A stretch of DNA of 35,746 nt from Candidatus Wildermuthbacteria bacterium RIFCSPHIGHO2_01_FULL_48_25 (GTDB taxonomy: Bacteria > Patescibacteriota > Minisyncoccia > Minisyncoccales > UBA10102), in contig MHTR01000013.1 in NCBI GenBank assembly GCA_001823155.1, positions 1 through 35,746 of the forward strand. Direction: 5' to 3'. Below, piece by piece: positions 6,687 to 18,047 of this stretch. The notes beneath the pieces are model-generated. The model saw only the letters and a program-made list of their open reading frames with translations, ran no database searches and was not told where the DNA came from. The first letter of the stretch is position 1. Every line of letters starts with the position of its first letter. The position numbers were made by a program, and so were the translations under genes.

Positions 6687-8510
6687 CTATTCTACGGTGA
6701 CACTCTTTGCGAGGTTGCGGGGTTTGTCGACGTCGTAGCCGCGCAAGACGCCCATGTAATAGGCAAATAATTGCAAAGGAATAACGGAAAGAAGGGGCGT
6801 GAGCATTTCCAGGGTTTTGGGAATGTAGAAGACATCGTCTGCAATACTTTTAATACCTTCGTCTCCTTCAGTAGCTATGGCAATCACTTTCCCGTTTCGC
6901 GCTTTGATTTCTTGAATATTCGAAATCATCTTCTCGTATACAGAATCAGAAGGACAAATGGCAATGGTTGGGAAGTTTTCATCAATCAACGCAATGGGGC
7001 CATGCTTCATTTCCCCTGCCCCGTATCCCTCCGCGTGCACGTACGATATCTCCTTGAGCTTCAGGGCTCCTTCCAGGGCAACAGGATAGTTATATTTCCT
7101 TCCTATATATAGGAAGTTCTCAAAGCCTTTGTATTTTTGCGCGAGCGCCTCAACAGAACTTGCTTTTGAAAGGATCTGCGAGACCAGTTCGGGAACTCTC
7201 GCAATTTCTTTCGCGATCCTCTGGCCCATAACAAGAGACAACTGCCTTTGCCTTCCCAGAAGCAACGTAAGAAGGGAAAGCACAGCAAGCTGCGAAGTAA
7301 ACGCCTTGGTGGAAGCCACTCCAATTTCTGGGCCCGCGTGGTTGTAGACTCCCGCATCAGTTTCTCTTGTAATAGAAGAACCCACTGCATTCACGATTCC
7401 CAAAGCCAACCCTCCTTTTTCCTTCACTTCTTTGAGCGAGGCAAGAGTATCCGCGGTTTCCCCAGATTGGGAAATAAAAAGGGAGGCAGTATCTTTATCG
7501 ATAATTGGTTTGCGGTAGCGGAATTCAGAAGCAAAATCCACATCCACGGGAATCCCCGCGTATTCTTCCAGCATATACTCTCCCACCAAGCCCGCGTTCA
7601 AAGAAGTGCCGCACGCAATAATATTCAATCCTTGAACTTCTCTCAGAGATTTCTCCACTTCTGCCAAACCTCCTAATCTTGCTCTTCCTTCCTCTGCAAG
7701 AATCCTCCCTCGTATGCTGTTCTCAATACTTTCCGGCTGCTCCATGATTTCTTTGAGCATAAAATGCTCATACCCTCCTTTTTGTGCCTCCTCCAAAGTC
7801 CACTCAAGTTCCGTGACTTCTTTTTTCTTGAGGTTTCTCTGCAAGTCGAACACCTCGAACGTGCTTTCCTTGATTACCGCTATCTCTCCGTCATCCAAAA
7901 ACACCATTTTATTGGAATGGCTAATCAAAGCCGAAGGGTCTGAAGCAACGAATCCTCCGCTTCCGTTCACTGAGAAAACCAAGGGGCTTGATACTCTCGC
8001 TGCAACTATCTTGCCCGGGTCTTCTTTCGCAATAACCGCAATACCATAACTCCCTCTTACATACTGCAGAGCTTTCCTCACTGCCTCCTCTAAGTTTCCC
8101 TGGAAGAAATGCTCTACTAAATGGGGCAAAACTTCTGTGTCTGTCTCCGAAAGAAAGGTATGGCCTTTTGCTTTAAGTTTTTCTTTGAGTACTTGATAGT
8201 TCTCAATAATACCGTTGTGCACCAGAAAGATATTTTGTTTGCAATCCGCGTGCGGGTGGGCATTTGCCTCTGTCACCCCTCCGTGCGTTGCCCAGCGTGA
8301 GTGGCCAAGCCCTATGGTGCCTTTGGGATAGATATCCGTTACCTTTTGCTCCAAACTCTCCAGCTTTCCCACTGCTTTGACGCACACGGGCTCTAAACCG
8401 AACACAACAACGCCTGAGGAATCATACCCCCGGTAGCTTTCCCTCCTCAACCCTTCCATTAATAGAGGGAGGGCCTGTTCTTTTCCAATATACCCGATAA
8501 TTCCACACAT
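6687..8510 (-). CDS. glmS: Glutamine--fructose-6-phosphate aminotransferase
   Basis: MCGIIGYIG N-terminus, HSRWATHG, two SIS domains, C-terminal DKPRNLAKSVTVE. Confidence 0.97.
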   Translation of the reverse strand: MCGIIGYIGKEQALPLLMEGLRRESYRGYDSSGVVVFGLEPVCVKAVGKLESLEQKVTDIYPKGTIGLGHSRWATHGGVTEANAHPHADCKQNIFLVHNGIIENYQVLKEKLKAKGHTFLSETDTEVLPHLVEHFFQGNLEEAVRKALQYVRGSYGIAVIAKEDPGKIVAARVSSPLVFSVNGSGGFVASDPSALISHSNKMVFLDDGEIAVIKESTFEVFDLQRNLKKKEVTELEWTLEEAQKGGYEHFMLKEIMEQPESIENSIRGRILAEEGRARLGGLAEVEKSLREVQGLNIIACGTSLNAGLVGEYMLEEYAGIPVDVDFASEFRYRKPIIDKDTASLFISQSGETADTLASLKEVKEKGGLALGIVNAVGSSITRETDAGVYNHAGPEIGVASTKAFTSQLAVLSLLTLLLGRQRQLSLVMGQRIAKEIARVPELVSQILSKASSVEALAQKYKGFENFLYIGRKYNYPVALEGALKLKEISYVHAEGYGAGEMKHGPIALIDENFPTIAICPSDSVYEKMISNIQEIKARNGKVIAIATEGDEGIKSIADDVFYIPKTLEMLTPLLSVIPLQLFAYYMGVLRGYDVDKPRNLAKSVTVE

Positions 8511-8519
8511 AGAACATTC

Positions 8520-11351
8520 CTATACCACAATATTCACTAACCTTCCAGGAACGAACACCACGCGCTTTACCTTGCTGTTTCCCACCCACTTTCGAATGTT
8601 CCTGCTTTTCAAAGCAAAATCCGTTGCTTGTTTCTCGCTCGTGTCTGCCGCCAACTCCATAACATCGCGCACTTTGCCGTTCACCTGAATGATAAAGCGA
8701 ATACGCTCTGCTTTCACCTGCTTCACGTCGTACTTTGGCCACGGTTGATTGTGCACGCTGTCTTTATGACCAAGTTTACTCCAAAGCTCTTCTGTCATGT
8801 ATGGGGCAAAAGGGGCTAAAAGGATGAGAAGCGTTTCAATGTCTTTCTTTCCTCCATCCTTCATTTCATTCGAGTATTCCATCAGAGAAGCAATGGCGGT
8901 ATTGTATCTTAGATTTTCAAGGTCTTCGGTGACTTTTTTGATCGTTTTATTTCTCAAACTAACCAGATCGTTTTTTGCTTCAGTCTTTGCTGTCACAAGC
9001 TCAAATGCTCGACTCAAGAACCGGCATATCCCAACTATCCCTTTGTCACTCCAATCTCCGCCTTCTGCAAAGGGCCCGAGAAACATCAAGTACATGCGAA
9101 CAGTGTCTGCTCCATACTTCACAAAGTATTCGTCCGGATTCACCACGTTCCCTTTGGATTTCGACATCTTGGCGCCCTCTTTGGTGATTAATCCATGCGC
9201 GCGAAACTTTTTGAAGGGCTCATCAAAAGCAATGTGCCCCATGTCTTTCAAAGCCATGGTGATGAACCTGGTGTATAACAAGTGCAGCACCGCGTGCTCC
9301 TGGCCTCCAATGTACATGCTTACCGGAAGCCATTTTTTGACCCTTGCCTTATCAAAGGGTTTGTTCTTGAACTCTGTGCAAGGATAGCGGAAGAAATACC
9401 AGGCTGAATCTAGGAATGTATCTGAAACATCAGTCTCGCGTTCTGCCTTACCTTTGCACTTTGGGCACTTGGTGTTCATAAAGCTCGCAACAGAAGCCAA
9501 AGGTGATTTCCCTGTTCCTGTAGGTCTAAAGTCCTTCACTTCAGGAAGTTTTACAGGCAGGTCTTTTTCAGGAACCGGCACTGTGCCACACTTCTTGCAG
9601 TAGATAATAGGAATGGGCGGGCCCCAGTAGCGCTGGCGCGAGATAAGCCAGTCTCGCAAATGGTAATTTACTTTCTTTTGCCCCTTTGCGAACTTCACGA
9701 TTTCACCCATGGCAAGTTTCGAGTTCATGCCATTGAACTTGCCTGAGTTGATAAGCACACCCTCTCCTAGGTATGACCCAGACTTCCCTTCCCATCTTGA
9801 AAGCCATATTCCAGTTTCCGTATGGGTCATGTTTTGAGGAGTGATCTGGGACTTTTCAAGCCACAGAGCTTCGTGCCGCTCTTTTTCTTCTTCTGAAACC
9901 TCAACCCTGTCTTCTCCCGCGAGGTCAAACAAAACCGCGGTAGTGTACGAAACGCGGTTTTCGTCTTTATGGGCCGCGAAATATTCCGCGCAAACCTGGC
10001 CTCCCAGCACGCGCACGAGTTTCAAGTTGGTATACCCTGTTTCTTCTTCTACTTCCCTGCGGGCTGCTTTCACGATATCTTCGTTTTCTTCAACCCCTCC
10101 CATGGGAAACGTGAGCCAGTTGAACTTCTTCCATTTGAGGCACAGGATTTTGCCGTCTTTTGGATTTCTTACTATGGCGTGCACGTTTCTCCTTTCAACC
10201 TTTTTCTTTCCCGCAACAGGCGGGTTGCGCTTATCTATCAGCCAAGGAATTACGACTTCTGTAATTGGAAGTTTATATTTTGTCGCAAACTCAAGGTCGC
10301 GTTCGTCATGCGCCGGTACCGCCATAATCGCTCCCGTGCCGTACGAGGCTAAAACATAATCCGCGATAAAAACAGGGATATTCTCTTTGGTTGCGGGGTT
10401 TACTGCTCTTACTCCTTTTAACTCAACCCCAGTCTTTTCTTTTGTGAGTTCTGTACGCTCAAGTTCGCTCTTTTGCTTTGCCTCTTCCAGGTATTTTTGA
10501 ACTTCTCCCCAGTTTTTGATTTGGGATTTAAGTTTCTCAACAAGTTCGTGCTCCGGAGCAAAAACCATGTACGTTGCTCCGAACAAAGTATCGGGTCGTG
10601 TGGTGAATGCATTAATTTTGAGACTTGAGTTTTGAATTTTAAATTCGATCTGAGCGCCCTCAGATCGCCCGATCCAGTTTCGCTGCGCGATTTTGGTTCG
10701 TTCTGACCAATCAATCTTTTCTAGGTTTTTGAGTAGCTTGTCTGCGTATTTTGTAATACGGAAAAACCACTGCTCCAACTCCTTTTGCATAACTTGGCTG
10801 CTGCACCGTTCACACTTCCCGTCTATAACCTGCTCGTTTGCAAGAACTGTTTTGCAAGAAGGACACCAATCAACAGGAGCTTTTGCTTTGTACGCCAGGC
10901 CTGCTTTATAGAGCTGCAAAAACAGCCACTGTGTCCATTTGTAATATTCTGGCTCGCTTGTGGTTACTGCCCTGCTCCAATCAAACAAAGCTCCCAGTTG
11001 CTTTAATTGCTCGGTAAAATGCTTGATGTTCTTCGCGGTTTGGGCTTTAGGATGCGTTCCCATCTTAATGGCAAAGTTTTCTGAATGAATGCCAAAAGAA
11101 TCAAACCCCATGGGCTCGAATACATCATTCCCTCTCATTCGCTCAAAGCGGCCGTGGATGTCTGAACCAGTGAAAGCATAGACGTTCCCCACATGTAAAC
11201 CCTCTGCAGAGGGGTATGGAAACATCATTAAGTTGTAGTAGGGCTTCCGCCCTTTGGCGGATACCTTCTTCAGATCAACCTGCCACGCCTTCTTTCTTTC
11301 CCAAGCCTTCGCCCACTTTGCTTCGATTTGCTGTGGATTATAGTTCGCCAT
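8520..11351 (-). CDS. leuS: Leucyl-tRNA synthetase with inserted Nudix domain
   Basis: MANYNPQQIEAKWAKAW; YPSAEGLHVGN (HIGH-like), KMSKSKGNVV; in-frame Nudix box GGVEENEDIVKAARREVEEETGY. ORF extends to 11372 with an alternative start. Confidence 0.95.
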   Translation of the reverse strand: MANYNPQQIEAKWAKAWERKKAWQVDLKKVSAKGRKPYYNLMMFPYPSAEGLHVGNVYAFTGSDIHGRFERMRGNDVFEPMGFDSFGIHSENFAIKMGTHPKAQTAKNIKHFTEQLKQLGALFDWSRAVTTSEPEYYKWTQWLFLQLYKAGLAYKAKAPVDWCPSCKTVLANEQVIDGKCERCSSQVMQKELEQWFFRITKYADKLLKNLEKIDWSERTKIAQRNWIGRSEGAQIEFKIQNSSLKINAFTTRPDTLFGATYMVFAPEHELVEKLKSQIKNWGEVQKYLEEAKQKSELERTELTKEKTGVELKGVRAVNPATKENIPVFIADYVLASYGTGAIMAVPAHDERDLEFATKYKLPITEVVIPWLIDKRNPPVAGKKKVERRNVHAIVRNPKDGKILCLKWKKFNWLTFPMGGVEENEDIVKAARREVEEETGYTNLKLVRVLGGQVCAEYFAAHKDENRVSYTTAVLFDLAGEDRVEVSEEEKERHEALWLEKSQITPQNMTHTETGIWLSRWEGKSGSYLGEGVLINSGKFNGMNSKLAMGEIVKFAKGQKKVNYHLRDWLISRQRYWGPPIPIIYCKKCGTVPVPEKDLPVKLPEVKDFRPTGTGKSPLASVASFMNTKCPKCKGKAERETDVSDTFLDSAWYFFRYPCTEFKNKPFDKARVKKWLPVSMYIGGQEHAVLHLLYTRFITMALKDMGHIAFDEPFKKFRAHGLITKEGAKMSKSKGNVVNPDEYFVKYGADTVRMYLMFLGPFAEGGDWSDKGIVGICRFLSRAFELVTAKTEAKNDLVSLRNKTIKKVTEDLENLRYNTAIASLMEYSNEMKDGGKKDIETLLILLAPFAPYMTEELWSKLGHKDSVHNQPWPKYDVKQVKAERIRFIIQVNGKVRDVMELAADTSEKQATDFALKSRNIRKWVGNSKVKRVVFVPGRLVNIVV

Positions 11352-11399
11352 ACAATGCCCCATAATAGTCAATCTGGTTCTTTTTGTCTATTCTAGAGT

Positions 11400-12322: not shown

Positions 12323-13169
12323 TGAAAAGAGCTTGAGCGTTGGCGGTGGTGGCAGAAGCTACTTCGTCAACTGAAATGCCTTTGATGCGGGCGATTTCTT
12401 CTGCTACATACTTCACAAATAGAGGCTCGTTCCTCTCTGTTTTTGCTTCTGGGGGAACAAGGTAAGGAGAATCTGTTTCCAAAACGATTCTTTCTAAGGG
12501 GATATTTTTAATGATCTCCTCGGGGGCTGGAAGCGCGGGAACTTTCTTGAAAATCAAACCGTTGAAACCAAAGTATAAACCCATCGCATAGAACTTCTCT
12601 GCCTGGGCCAAGGTACCGGTATAGCAGTGCACGACTCCTCGAACTTTTCCCTGAGAAAGAAACTCAATCAACTCGTCATGCGCCTTTCTGCAGTGGAAAA
12701 TAACCGGCAAACCAAGTTCTTCCGCAAGCTTCACCTGCAAGGCCAGCGTGGTTTTTTGCTTTAACCTGAATGCTTCTCTCTTTTCCTTTCCTTTGGGCTC
12801 ATAGTAATAATCCAGGCCACACTCGCCTACTGCAACCACTTTTTTTGATTGCCCTAATGCTTTGTACTTTTCGTAATCAAACTCCTCTGCTCTTGTTTCA
12901 AAAGTCATCCAGGCTTCTTTCTTCACGCTTTCTGACTGAACCTCCAAAACATCAACTTCCCTCTCTTCCAGGTGAATGGGGTGCAACCCAATCGCGGCAT
13001 GCACTTCCTTTCCATACTTCTCCGCCATTTCCACCGCTCTTTGCGAAGTTGAAAACTGCGTTCCTGGCATAATAACCCAAGTATTGTTTTCCAATGCGCG
13101 CTTCAACACAGCGTCACCGTCTTCTTTGAAAGCGTTGAAACTTACGTGGCCATGGGTGTCTATAAGCAT
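12306..13169 (-). CDS. tatD: TatD family hydrolase
   Basis: MLIDTHGHVSF, GECGLDYYY, FHCRKAHDE, ETDSPYLVP. Confidence 0.93.
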   Translation of the reverse strand: MLIDTHGHVSFNAFKEDGDAVLKRALENNTWVIMPGTQFSTSQRAVEMAEKYGKEVHAAIGLHPIHLEEREVDVLEVQSESVKKEAWMTFETRAEEFDYEKYKALGQSKKVVAVGECGLDYYYEPKGKEKREAFRLKQKTTLALQVKLAEELGLPVIFHCRKAHDELIEFLSQGKVRGVVHCYTGTLAQAEKFYAMGLYFGFNGLIFKKVPALPAPEEIIKNIPLERIVLETDSPYLVPPEAKTERNEPLFVKYVAEEIARIKGISVDEVASATTANAQALFKLGEA

Positions 13170-13200
13170 TGGCTTATTGTAGCAAAGGTTTAAGAAATAA

Positions 13201-13229
13201 AAGAGGGCTTCCTAAAGAGGAAACCCTTA
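13201..13229 (-). terminator. Terminator downstream of 13252-13455
   Basis: Minus strand AGGGTTTCC-TCTTTA-GGAAGCCCT followed by CTTTTATTTC. Confidence 0.65.
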
Positions 13230-13251: not shown

Positions 13252-13455
13252 TTAGTGGGGGGAGACCTGGAGTTCATGCACAGTCCTGGGGATGACCGTT
13301 GCTTCCAGGTGCGAAAGTCGCTGGCGGCATCGTTCCTTCTTTTCTGGAGGAACCGCCGAACTCGCTAGTTTTTTCTGTAGTGCCTTTTTTTCTGCCACGT
13401 AGTTTGCGAGACGGACATCTAGACCAGAAATTCTTCCTCCAAGATTAGGCTCCAT
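13252..13455 (-). CDS. Small orphan hypothetical protein (67 aa)
   Basis: ORF preceded by AGAAGGGGGA ribosome site, followed by terminator. Confidence 0.6.
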   Translation of the reverse strand: MEPNLGGRISGLDVRLANYVAEKKALQKKLASSAVPPEKKERCRQRLSHLEATVIPRTVHELQVSPH

Positions 13456-13504
13456 TGCCCGATTCCCCCTTCTGGGAACTAGAGAACTGATTAATCTGCC
13501 TCGC

Positions 13505-13550
13505 TTGAGCGCAGCTGGATCCGCTGATTGGCGGATTCAGCTATGCTCAA
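13505..13550. repeat. Long near-perfect hairpin
   Basis: TTGAGC-gc-AGCTG-G-ATCCGC-TGATTG-GCGGAT-T-CAGCT-at-GCTCAA. Confidence 0.85.
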
Positions 13551-13552
13551 AC

Positions 13553-13584
13553 GAAAAGACCTCCTTGTTCCGGGAGGTCTTTTC
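13553..13584 (-). terminator. Terminator-like hairpin in leader of 13252-13455
   Basis: Perfect 12-bp stem GAAAAGACCTCC / GGAGGTCTTTTC, 8-nt loop. Confidence 0.7.
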
Positions 13585-13604
13585 AAGTTCCTACAAGTTT
13601 ACAC

Positions 13605-13730
13605 CTAGTTGAACGTACGAAAAGACCTCTCCGCCCGCAAGGCAATCAATTTGGAAACCAAAACAATTTGCTTTGCCGTTAAAGCAGACTGTTTTGAGCC
13701 CAACCTAAATTGGCGGAGACCTCTTAACAT
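13605..13730 (-). CDS. Putative 41-aa leader ORF (or structured leader RNA)
   Basis: ATG...TAG on minus: MLRGLRQFRLGSKQSALTAKQIVLVSKLIALRAERSFRTFN; starts within a few nt of the predicted transcription start. Confidence 0.35.
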   Translation of the reverse strand: MLRGLRQFRLGSKQSALTAKQIVLVSKLIALRAERSFRTFN

Positions 13731-13738
13731 ATTATTTG

Positions 13739-13767
13739 AGTATATTCGAGCCAAAGAGTTGTGTCAA
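13739..13767 (-). promoter_or_regulatory. Near-consensus sigma70 promoter
   Basis: Minus strand TTGACA (13762-13767), 17 nt, TATACT (13739-13744). Confidence 0.75.
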
Positions 13768-13832: not shown

Positions 13833-14909
13833 CTATACGCTTACAGGTTCCATGGCGCGAAGTCTGGAATGCGCCTCGAGGAGCAGTTCCTCGGTTCTCT
13901 CCCAACCTACGCATGCGTCGGTGATCGACACGCCGTACTTCAGCTTCGAAGGATCGCCGTTGTCGTGCTTCTGGTTGCCTTCATTCAGGTGACTCTCGAT
14001 CATCAGGGCGACCAGGTGCCGGTTGCCGGATACCCGCTGCTCGAGCACGTTGCGGAACACAACCTGTTGGTTGCGGTAATCTTTGTTCGAGTTGCCATGT
14101 GAGCAATCGACCATGAGGTACGGCGGCAAGCCGGCCTTCTTGAGGCGCGCAACCGCGTCGGCAACATGCCCAGCATCGTAGTTCGTCCCTTGGACACCTC
14201 CACGAAGAACCACGTGCGCGTCTGGATTCCCAGTTGTCTTGATGACGCTGACCCGACCAGCGGTATCGACGCCAAGGAACGTGTGCGGCGCACGCGCGGC
14301 AACAATTGCGTCAACGGCGATCTGGATAGAATGACCAGTGCCGCCTGTTCCATTCTTGAAGCCGATTGGCGTGCTCAAGCCACTCGCCAACTGGCGATGG
14401 GTTTGGCTCTCTACCGTCCGGGCGCCAATTGCGCCCCATGACATCAAGTCTGCCAGGTACTGTGGCGTGACGGGGTCAAGCCACTCAATTCCTGCCGGCA
14501 GCCCTGTATCCAGGACATCCAACAGAAACTTCCGGGCACGGGTCAAACCGGTCGGCACGTCGAACGAACCATTTAGGTGAGGGTCATTGATGAATCCCTT
14601 CCAGCCGATTGTCGTTCGGGGCTTTTCGAAATAGACCCGCATCACGATCATGATGCGGTCTTCCACGCGCTTCTTGAGCTCGGCGAGTCGGCGGGCGTAC
14701 TCAAGGCCGGCCTTCTCATCATGGATCGAGCATGGACCGACCAGCACCAGCATACGGTCGTTCTCCCCATTGATGATACGCCGGATCTGCTCGCGACTGT
14801 CTGCGACGAGCTCGCTCATCGCATCGGTCATGGGAAACCTTAACAGGAACGCGTCCGGCGGTTCCAAGGGCGTCATGGACTCTACGTTTAGATTTGAAGT
14901 TTGCCTCAC
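13833..14909 (-). CDS. Class I 3-deoxy-7-phosphoheptulonate (DAHP) synthase, AroG/F/H type
   Basis: VLVGPCSIHDEKAGLEYA, MRVYFEKPRTTIGWKGFINDPHLNGSFD, GIEWLDPVTPQYLADLMSWGAIGARTVESQTHR, GFKNGTGG, MVDCSHGNSNKDYRNQ. GTG start with GGGAGG ribosome site. Confidence 0.95.
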   Translation of the reverse strand: MRQTSNLNVESMTPLEPPDAFLLRFPMTDAMSELVADSREQIRRIINGENDRMLVLVGPCSIHDEKAGLEYARRLAELKKRVEDRIMIVMRVYFEKPRTTIGWKGFINDPHLNGSFDVPTGLTRARKFLLDVLDTGLPAGIEWLDPVTPQYLADLMSWGAIGARTVESQTHRQLASGLSTPIGFKNGTGGTGHSIQIAVDAIVAARAPHTFLGVDTAGRVSVIKTTGNPDAHVVLRGGVQGTNYDAGHVADAVARLKKAGLPPYLMVDCSHGNSNKDYRNQQVVFRNVLEQRVSGNRHLVALMIESHLNEGNQKHDNGDPSKLKYGVSITDACVGWERTEELLLEAHSRLRAMEPVSV

Positions 14910-15059
14910 AGTGGTCCTCCCTTTCCTGTGCCCTTATTCACTTGTTAAACAGCTATCCCAGAGAATGTTCCCTGGCCTCCACACTCACCTCCGTAAGCGC
15001 AGAAGTCAGAGAATATCCGCATAAATCCGCCCAATCAGCATACATCCGCGTCCAAAAGA

Positions 15060-15091
15060 AACCAGCCCCTCGTTTGGCGAAGGGCTGGGTT
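15060..15091 (-). terminator. Terminator-like hairpin between leader ORF 15113-15184 and DAHP synthase
   Basis: Minus strand AACCCAGCCCTTCG-CCAAA-CGAGGGGCTGGTT followed by TCTTTT. Confidence 0.75.
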
Positions 15092-15112
15092 GAATGCTCG
15101 TTTATCTACTTT

Positions 15113-15184
15113 TTAACACGAACAACTACCTTGCTCTCCGCTAGGGCTGGTAAAAAAGAAGTAAAAGAAGTTTCGCGTATTCAT
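15113..15184 (-). CDS. Putative Phe/Tyr-rich attenuator leader peptide (23 aa) upstream of DAHP synthase
   Basis: ATG AAT ACG CGA AAC TTC TTT TAC TTC TTT TTT ACC AGC CCT AGC GGA GAG CAA GGT AGT TGT TCG TGT TAA = MNTRNFFYFFFTSPSGEQGSCSC; TTGACA (15221-15226) and TATACC (15200-15205) upstream, terminator downstream. Confidence 0.65.
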   Translation of the reverse strand: MNTRNFFYFFFTSPSGEQGSCSC

Positions 15185-15222
15185 GATTGTACTTCAAAGG
15201 GTATACGAGATAACAAATCCTG

Positions 15223-16320
15223 TCAAGTTTTCTGCGAAACTTGTATCACAAAGTCCTTGAAGACACTATAGAATCTTTCTAAGTCTTTCAGGTCAATCCA
15301 CTCATTTTCTCCGTGGTGGCCTCCGCCTTGAGGGCGAACCGATACCGCAGGAATTCCCCTCTGCACAAAAAATCTCGCATCAGAGGTTCCGTGGGATAGA
15401 TCCAAACCGGTTTTGATGCCATATTTGTTCTTTGCTATGCGGGAAAATAACTCTGCGAAAGAGAGCTTAAAGTCATTCCTGAAACTGGGGGTGGCGTGAA
15501 CGATGGCAACTTTAATAGAAGGAAATTTCTTTTCCAGGGCTCGGATCTTTTTTAAGAGTGCCTTTGTTTGCGACTCAGAAGGAATTCTGATCGAAAGCTG
15601 CGCCTTCGCGAAATCTGGAATCTGATTAGCCGCTTTCCCTCCTTCAATGACGCCAACGTTGCATGTTGCGTGCCAATGTATAGTGTCACCGCAAGGTTCT
15701 TGGGGAAAGAGCTTCTGAATTCTATCAAGAAACCCCATAAGCGAGGTAATCGCGTTTCCTCCAAGCCATGTTCTGGAACCATGTGCAGAGATCCCCTTAC
15801 TTACTACTTCAAGCTCCAGAACGCCCTTGGCCCCTTTTTCTATGTCCCAGTTTTGCCCGCCATCGGGAATGAAAACAACTTTTGACCGGTATCCTTTGGC
15901 AACAAGGTACTTCACCCCTTCTTCTCCTCCGATCTCCTCATCGCTTGTGAGCATTATGCCAAAGTCGTAACGAGGAAGTTTTTTGCTCAGATCTTCGAGA
16001 AGTTTAAGGTAGCACGCGACCGCAAATTTCATATCAAATGTCCCTCGTCCATAAAGACGACTTTCTTTTTGTTTTGGAACAAAAACCTGGGGAGAACCGG
16101 GAACAACGTCAACGTGGGCACCCAGCCAGAGGGTTGGCGTCTTTGTTTTTTGGGTCGTAATAAGAAGGGACGGGAAAGAAGCTTGATATATCAATTTCGT
16201 GAAGACTTTGTATTTTTTGCACTGTTTCTGAATCCAGCGCAAACATAACGCGTTTTGTTTTTGATCCGAGGTTACTGTTTTGAATCGTATAAGAGTTTTT
16301 AAAATCTGTTCCAATTTCAT
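15223..16320 (-). CDS. M20 family metallopeptidase (ArgE/DapE-like)
   Basis: LWLGAHVDVVPGS, YGRGTFDMKFAVACYLK, TSDEEIGGEEGVKYL, SHGTSDARFF. Confidence 0.9.
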   Translation of the reverse strand: MKLEQILKTLIRFKTVTSDQKQNALCLRWIQKQCKKYKVFTKLIYQASFPSLLITTQKTKTPTLWLGAHVDVVPGSPQVFVPKQKESRLYGRGTFDMKFAVACYLKLLEDLSKKLPRYDFGIMLTSDEEIGGEEGVKYLVAKGYRSKVVFIPDGGQNWDIEKGAKGVLELEVVSKGISAHGSRTWLGGNAITSLMGFLDRIQKLFPQEPCGDTIHWHATCNVGVIEGGKAANQIPDFAKAQLSIRIPSESQTKALLKKIRALEKKFPSIKVAIVHATPSFRNDFKLSFAELFSRIAKNKYGIKTGLDLSHGTSDARFFVQRGIPAVSVRPQGGGHHGENEWIDLKDLERFYSVFKDFVIQVSQKT

Positions 16321-16407: not shown

Positions 16408-17730
16408 TTACTCTGCGAGGATTGCAGCTCCCGCGACCGTATCAAGAGCACCATGGATGAGTACCTCGGGAGCTGGTCTTGCGTCCCAATTACCACCCAA
16501 GGCTATCCACTCCTTCCTTTTCGGACTGTATCCGAAAAAGATGCGGAAGATGTAGTTATAGGGCTTACCTTTGATGCGCATGCGCATGGGCGGGATGAAG
16601 GGTTGTATATACGCCCCCTCGGGAGACTGTATCCGAGCCAAGACTTGCCTTTTCTTGACTTCGGACTTCTCACCAGGCTTCCAGATGACAACACCCCGAG
16701 TCTTGCTCCCTTGAAACGGTTTTATGCAGAACCCCTCCTCCCATGGAAGCTGTTCTGGATTTCTTGCGACTTCCTGTGGAGCGAGCGCCTTCCACAAACC
16801 GAGAGCGCGACCATAGGATTTCAAGCCCTTGGTTGCAACCGTGCTGACGGAACGAGAAACGAGGGCATGAAACGACAGCTCATCTGGATCTGCCCTCACA
16901 AGGACAAGCCTGTTTCCCTTAAGAACTTCGCTGTGGGATATTTCGGGAATCCACAGATGGTCGTCTCCCCCGTGCTTGGCGCGCCGCGGCGACACCACCA
17001 CAAAAAACTCAGGCCATTCCTTTTGGAGCTCAGAAAGAAGCGTTCTGAATTGTTGATTCAGTGTCAGGGTTATTCCTACTCCGGCGGGGCGCTCTTCGAT
17101 CTCGTACACTCCGAGGCCCGTGCCTTTGCGCCAGACACAATCCAATCGCACCAGAAGACTTGGAACTCCAAATTTCTCCTGCGCGAATGTTCCTTCCCCT
17201 GGAAAAACCTTCTGCCACTCCGAAAGGAGACCAAGGCATTCCGCTGTTGCTTCCTTACTCACAGATACGGTGCGAGAAAGGGTCTGCACAACCCACGGCT
17301 GATGCCAGGGTTTGCCAAAAAGCATGGTCTTGAAAAACCCTCCGCCAGTTTCTGGTGCCCATTGATCGACAAGATCGCGGGGCATGACGAGCAGATCGAA
17401 AAGCGTAGGACAGTCCCCATCAACTGTGGGACAGGAAGTAATCATCCCTTTGCCCTTGCGGATCTCCCACGTAAACACCGAGGGGAAGCGCCGCTCGATC
17501 TCCTTCCAAAACTCGATATTCCGAGGCTGCTCTTTATTAGGCTTAAGTTGTTGAGGCAGATGGAGTAACCCTTCCTGGCATCCGCATTTTGCCAGCATCG
17601 CTTTGCTCCACTTGCCGGCGCTCTGAACCCCATCCCAGCCCCAGCTTCTGCGTAGCTCGTTCAGCTTCTCCAGCTTCTCGGACATGGCACGACCCTGCGC
17701 GCGATACTCTTCATATGCCGAAGCATACAT
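16408..17730 (-). CDS. Orphan hypothetical protein (440 aa), possibly ATP-grasp-like
   Basis: ORF with AAGGAGAA ribosome site; RLDCVWRKGTGLGVYEIEERPAGVGI and FCIKPFQGSKTRGVVIWKP...AYIQPFI...GGNWDARPAPEVLIHGA loosely resemble ATP-grasp ligase segments. Confidence 0.7.
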   Translation of the reverse strand: MYASAYEEYRAQGRAMSEKLEKLNELRRSWGWDGVQSAGKWSKAMLAKCGCQEGLLHLPQQLKPNKEQPRNIEFWKEIERRFPSVFTWEIRKGKGMITSCPTVDGDCPTLFDLLVMPRDLVDQWAPETGGGFFKTMLFGKPWHQPWVVQTLSRTVSVSKEATAECLGLLSEWQKVFPGEGTFAQEKFGVPSLLVRLDCVWRKGTGLGVYEIEERPAGVGITLTLNQQFRTLLSELQKEWPEFFVVVSPRRAKHGGDDHLWIPEISHSEVLKGNRLVLVRADPDELSFHALVSRSVSTVATKGLKSYGRALGLWKALAPQEVARNPEQLPWEEGFCIKPFQGSKTRGVVIWKPGEKSEVKKRQVLARIQSPEGAYIQPFIPPMRMRIKGKPYNYIFRIFFGYSPKRKEWIALGGNWDARPAPEVLIHGALDTVAGAAILAE

Positions 17731-17815: not shown

Positions 17816-17842
17816 AAGCCACTAGTACTGCATTTAAAAACA

Positions 17843-17874
17843 AACAGCCGCCTCTTTTGGAGAGGCTGGCTGTT
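17843..17874 (-). terminator. Terminator (attenuator candidate) upstream of 16408-17730
   Basis: Minus strand AACAGCCAGCCTCTCCAAAAGAGGCGGCTGTT followed by TGTTTTT. Confidence 0.8.
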
Positions 17875-17903
17875 TTGAATCTATAGAAAATCCCTCTGAA
17901 AAT

Positions 17904-17987
17904 CTATACGAACAACATAACAACCAGCCTCTTGAGAGCGGCGCACCATGCGTGCATATACCTTCTTGTGCTGGTTATACTTGTCAT
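17904..17987 (-). CDS. Putative 27-aa leader ORF
   Basis: MTSITSTRRYMHAWCAALKRLVVMLFV; TTGACA (18020-18025), 16 nt, TAAAAT (17998-18003) directly upstream. Confidence 0.35.
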   Translation of the reverse strand: MTSITSTRRYMHAWCAALKRLVVMLFV

Positions 17988-18047
17988 ACCAGTGTCTATT
18001 TTACACACCCCCAAAACCTTGTCAATGGCTGGGCTCTTGTGGAACCA

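Follow-up and report, generated by a model that had tools for sequence, protein, structure and literature searches.

A probable Ile/Leu/Val-sensing attenuator and sister leaders at a tatD locus of small-genome Patescibacteria

Gene order and anatomy of the leader

The window (the whole 35,746-nucleotide stretch analysed here, contig C13) comes from a Candidatus Wildermuthbacteria genome of 515 kb and 82% completeness, in a family whose genomes are small (most lie between 0.4 and 0.9 Mb, and one reaches 1.1 Mb). On the minus strand, MetRS is followed by attenuator 1, a 440-aa ORF, an M20 peptidase, attenuator 2, a DAHP synthase, attenuator 3 (13456-13767), a 67-aa ORF, a terminator-like hairpin and tatD (Table 1). 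The initial annotation had called attenuator 3 the third leader of its kind, and two further units do lie upstream on the same strand (18025-17841 and 15226-15058). The promoter, 41-codon ORF, segments S1-S4 and nested hairpin that it described were each found on the minus strand at exactly the positions given.

Other features of the region and genome were recorded alongside. The leucyl-tRNA synthetase gene (8520-11372, minus strand) has a NUDIX-domain match at residues 394-513. At 13169-13204 (minus strand), as at the same gene in relatives, tatD has an apparent TACAAT box of its own a few bases ahead of its ATG; the family may have many leaderless mRNAs. Elsewhere in the source genome, contig C23 has a candidate small RNA (L148:852-1070), in which a strong promoter and a terminator flank a structured stretch that appears to be non-coding. 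At locus L117, a structured leader that includes a terminator-like hairpin lies behind a minus-strand promoter at 6984.

Table 1 Features of attenuator 3 and of neighbouring units, in window coordinates
Feature	Position	Strand	Details
Attenuator 1: leader MTSITSTRRYMHAWCAALKRLVVMLFV (17987-17904) and terminator	17841..18025	minus	ahead of 440-aa ORF
440-aa ORF behind attenuator 1	16408..17730	minus	no family match
Attenuator 2: Phe/Tyr leader MNTRNFFYFFFTSPSGEQGSCSC (15184-15113) and terminator	15058..15226	minus	switch modelled
DAHP synthase (AroFGH type) behind Phe/Tyr leader	13833..14909	minus	PF00793 6e-84, TIGR00034
Promoter TTGACA-N17-TATACT	13739..13767	minus	TTGACA 13767-13762, TATACT 13744-13739; consensus scan 11/12
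Leader-peptide ORF MLRGLRQFRLGSKQSALTAKQIVLVSKLIALRAERSFRTFN, predicted leaderless	ATG 13730 to TAG 13605 (13605..13730)	minus	41 codons and stop
S1 AAGAGGTCTCCGCC	13725-13712	minus	pairs with S2 in untranslated RNA
Nested hairpin	13696-13659	minus	first control codons within 3' arm
Control codons I V L V (13667-13656) and L I A L (13649-13638)	13638..13667	minus	codon table
S2 GGCGGAGAGGTCTTTTC (13635-13619), antiterminator 5' arm	13618..13635	minus	within final codons of leader ORF
Small hairpin inside antiterminator	13587..13614	minus	folding
S3 GAAAAGACCTCC	13584-13573	minus	common to antiterminator and terminator
S4 GGAGGTCTTTTC, terminator 3' arm, then T-rich tail	13564-13553	minus	
Hairpin right behind terminator, in read-through RNA only	13504..13551	minus	stable structure also behind other units' terminators
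Controlled gene, predicted 67-aa two-helix protein	13252..13455	minus	first ORF past terminator, purine-rich ribosome-binding site
Terminator-like hairpin ending the unit, ahead of tatD	13204..13227	minus	

The strong TTGACA promoter of attenuator 3 has counterparts in most homologous units. The leader ATG stands 8 nt downstream of the -10 hexamer, with homologues in the same spacing class, so that the transcription start that we infer at about 13732 would leave a 5' UTR of only about 2 nt. The predicted peptide carries the run I-V-L-V-S-K-L-I-A-L immediately ahead of S2, contains many basic and polar residues and has its end dictated by S2. Between this ORF and the 67-aa gene lies an intrinsic terminator (S3:S4, 12 bp, with its T-rich tail).

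Alternative pairings and a modelled switch

Between 13733 and 13548, the RNA has a minimum free energy (MFE) of -71.5 kcal/mol, compared with -46.0 +/- 4.2 kcal/mol for 200 dinucleotide shuffles (z = -6.1). The pairings claimed for S2:S3 (11-12 bp) and S3:S4 (12 bp) were both recovered. The S2:S3 duplex reaches -20.1 kcal/mol compared with -10.1 kcal/mol with shuffled leaders (p = 0.005), and the leader prefers its own S3 to the S3 of 30 other units. The S1:S2 pairing held up in part: the segments do pair, but as an interrupted helix, because a 2x2 internal loop separates 8 bp from 4 bp, and alone it has p = 0.09. Of all 31 units, 22 have an S2:S3 pairing that outdoes those of shuffled leaders (p <= 0.05), and 10 have an S1:S2 pairing above chance. 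The proposed 'classic alternating design' was similarly borne out for the alternating pairings but not for the place of S1, which lies upstream of the control codons without overlapping them; in the textbook trp leader, S1 overlaps them. As a stalled ribosome leaves S1 unmasked, S1 might compete with S2:S3.

Covariation links S2 to S3. In 13 units, with S2/S3 cuts made by hand after the pattern had been seen, the 3' extension of S2 fits its own unit's S3 better than the S3 of other units (permutation p = 5e-5). Covariation is thus not confined to S3:S4, the outcome that the initial annotation had held would speak against an exchange of segments.

To model the switch, pairing probabilities were computed with the RNA masked as far as 13 nt beyond the A-site codon's first base. 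Antiterminator and terminator are mutually exclusive in this calculation, and ribosome position sets which one forms. Terminator probability is 0.96 in ribosome-free RNA and 0.94 with the ribosome at the stop codon, and the antiterminator reaches 0.99, 0.99, 0.99, 0.98, 0.39 and 0.98 with the ribosome on the six listed I/L/V codons, the fifth being a weak stall position. MFE folds give the antiterminator for exposure from 13655 to 13642 and the terminator again from 13638 on, suggesting that sensing in the model relies chiefly on the first cluster, I22-V25. None of 100 shuffled leaders switches. Across all units modelled, 20 of 26 switch (0.25 expected), and a ribosome at the stop gives the terminator in all 26; the six that fail to switch include the first unit of the window.

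Recurrence of the leader plan in the family

A DNA similarity search of the family matched only the terminator of one relative. As there is almost no similarity at the DNA level, homologous units were located by synteny with tatD, upstream of which relatives carry the same layout in different sequence, with about 30 units across the family. Their common plan is a strong promoter, a start codon 3-16 nt past the -10 element, an ORF of about 23-36 codons and a terminator, followed by a stable hairpin, a ribosome-binding site and a gene. A detector chosen after the pattern was seen picked up 28 units in the family's tatD-region loci (0.30 Mb, both strands), 3 in loci of other bacteria (1.09 Mb) and 2 in the searched pieces of the source genome, both inside the window; it misses the window's Phe/Tyr unit owing to its -10 spacing, and that unit was added by hand. 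Units may sit side by side, as in genome G021 with five in 8 kb. Among 247 genomes of the order, the exact common-terminator pattern matched in four family genomes only, at tatD loci. Stable structure behind the terminator is general (mean z -3.4; z below -2 in 27 of 31 units). Two shapes of this hairpin recur among the units: GAGC-A-UAG...GCGCUC on the one hand, ...CAGGCC on the other.

What relatives keep is the ORF, the I/L/V run, S2:S3 and the terminator, yet not the sequence of the rod into which the whole RNA folds. This bears on the suggestion that the RNA is a free-standing, rod-shaped small RNA of the 6S type, of about 185 nt and ending at 13548, with the ORF and S2:S3 incidental. The rod is indeed very stable and has its own promoter and terminator, but it exists solely as the form that the leader takes when untranslated and terminated. 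For 6S RNA itself, 25 family genomes were searched with the RF00013 profile and selected genome pieces by motif: the profile gave no match in the source genome at E <= 1, and the GGGAGCC and GGCACCCACCTG motifs of relatives' 6S-like RNAs are absent from this RNA; we consider a small RNA of this kind very unlikely. The 6S-like RNAs bearing both motifs, all below the RF00013 cut-off, are at L083:1501-1638, L084:1501-1636, L085:1501-1644 and L086:1501-1624 (minus).

Control codons and the genes behind them

Across the family, leader peptides are rich either in I/L/V or in F/Y/W. With residues drawn at background frequency in 8-codon windows, the best window of attenuator 3 has 6 of 8 I/L/V codons (p = 0.048 alone), and related leaders reach 8 of 8 I/L/V or 7 of 8 F/Y/W (p 0.00025 and below). 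Above-chance I/L/V runs occur in about ten leaders and Phe-type runs in about the same number; some leaders, such as L154 and L170:970, have no clear run. Outside the runs, leader sequences diverge widely.

Phe-rich leaders stand ahead of DAHP synthase in this window and at L156, ahead of prephenate dehydratase at L162, L163 and L171, and ahead of ORFs without assigned function at L158, L159 and L166. Other families of the order also have similar Phe leaders in the vicinity of pheA, and at L184 and L186 these clearly precede the gene. As read from sequence, leader specificity matches the downstream gene wherever that gene is recognisable.

A leader that senses a ligand or protein (a riboswitch or a protein-dependent terminator) through the same hairpins, with the ORF not sensed, would suit the alternative terminator and antiterminator pairing too, and also the position of S1 upstream of the control codons. 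However, it is the type of codon run that varies between units, in step with known downstream genes, and no conserved aptamer-like core is seen among them. The Rfam search proposed for the riboswitch-like and 6S options lent neither any support: at gathering score, Rfam 15 matched only tmRNA in the window and no riboswitch, T-box or leader family, and weaker matches were chance-like. We regard a sensing leader as even less probable than the small RNA. In a relaxed Rfam search, sub-threshold matches to mir-2056 and Phe_leader were read as chance or palindrome.

Some leader peptides function in trans, such as peTrpL (PMC7298713), and the short I/L/V- or F-rich leaders of this family could likewise be small hydrophobic products in their own right, the terminator merely ending their mRNAs. 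Against this, the sequence freedom outside the codon runs, the basic and polar composition of the attenuator 3 peptide with its S2-imposed end, the covariation of S2:S3 and the placement of sister Phe leaders before Phe-pathway genes all argue for a regulatory role, and a peptide product is the least probable of the readings considered.

The 67-aa protein behind attenuator 3 has no Pfam or NCBIfam family. Its structure model is a two-helix hairpin (helices 7-31 and 37-64, pLDDT 84), with which a structure search returned nothing at E <= 0.001. Relatives have small helical ORFs at the equivalent place that are putative weak homologues, some clearly resembling one another and others close to shuffled-decoy level; I/L/V leaders stand ahead of small two-helix proteins without assigned function. 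A search of 25 family genomes, of which 18 are at least 90% complete, turned up neither chorismate synthase nor IlvD, and both were detected in 14 of 14 control genomes. The family therefore seems to be without the biosynthetic pathways that such switches usually control, and with IlvD in 0 of 25 genomes and a 67-aa ORF outside any family, attenuator 3 does not qualify as an ilv/leu biosynthesis attenuator. DAHP synthase and prephenate dehydratase each occur in 7 of the 25 genomes and, with chorismate synthase and IlvD not found, look like orphans.

The window's DAHP synthase aligns almost end to end with the Phe-regulated enzyme 1gg1/1kfl. It is 78% identical to a protein from a SAR202 Chloroflexi MAG, which suggests acquisition by transfer. 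Relatives of the enzyme are present in other phyla, with one similar leader candidate (at L015), and a comparable leader is absent at the relatives' DAHP synthase loci L003-L010.

Comparison with known attenuators

Enteric attenuators (pheL-pheA, trpL, ilvL and leuL) place a short control-codon ORF, four alternating segments and an intrinsic terminator ahead of a gene. Attenuator 3 has all of these elements, and the sister Phe/Tyr leader ahead of DAHP synthase is one that we take to resemble pheL in its Phe run. Unlike the enteric systems, attenuator 3 has a predicted leaderless ORF, an S2 inside the last codons of that ORF and an S1 upstream of the control codons; it precedes a 67-aa gene rather than ilv/leu, and an extra hairpin follows its terminator.

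Leaderless leader peptides are known in Actinobacteria including Streptomyces, among them S. lividans leuL, ilvL and trpL (PMC8079986; related attenuators in PMC1262725). These share the missing 5' UTR, the control-codon runs and, in several cases, a Rho-independent terminator, and precede genes for biosynthesis, transport or tRNA ligases (PMC8079986, PMC1262725), whereas the units described here combine several specificities at one locus, ahead of orphan enzymes and small proteins. Rfam Phe_leader (RF01859) gave weak matches over the region (21.7 and 30.8 bits compared with a cut-off of 55), but the stronger lies on the opposite strand, reading the terminator palindrome, and the leader is I/L/V-rich rather than Phe-rich. 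A search of the open-access literature, with subscription papers mostly outside it, brought up no paper describing attenuation for Patescibacteria or the Candidate Phyla Radiation. The mechanism is classical; novelty lies in the lineage, in the way several specificities cluster at one locus and in targets that are orphan or unassigned.

Proposed mechanism and implications

Attenuator 3 is very probably a transcription attenuator that uses a ribosome to sense when charged Ile/Leu/Val-tRNA is scarce, one of the options raised by the initial annotation. Its anatomy, including the control-codon run and the predicted leaderless start, the alternative pairings with S2-S3 covariation, the energetics of a modelled three-state switch, conservation and the match of sister-unit codons to their genes all come from computation and agree with this reading. 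RNA polymerase would start about 2 nt ahead of the leader ATG, and a ribosome would begin leaderless translation. With ample Ile/Leu/Val, the ribosome would reach the stop codon and cover S2, S3 would pair with S4, and transcription would end at about 13548. With Ile/Leu/Val-tRNAs scarce, it would wait at I22-V25, leaving S2 free to form S2:S3 before S4 is synthesized; transcription would then proceed through the second hairpin into the 67-aa gene. With no translation, S1:S2 would hold S2 and the terminator would form.

More speculatively, and on balance improbably, the metG-tatD cluster could serve a host-dependent bacterium as an amino-acid-starvation island. In it, separate Ile/Leu/Val, Phe/Tyr and possibly Trp attenuators would turn on small proteins that change fast, together with single enzymes that control flux (DAHP synthase and prephenate dehydratase) in pathways missing from the cell, and these products would act on a host or on scavenged intermediates.

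If attenuation operates as proposed, DAHP synthase and prephenate dehydratase, as orphans under Phe control, raise the question of their role in such cells. Bacteria without the pathways would still sense single amino acids through ribosome stalling, and the leaders would provide a codon-level label for the signal that each uncharacterised small gene answers.
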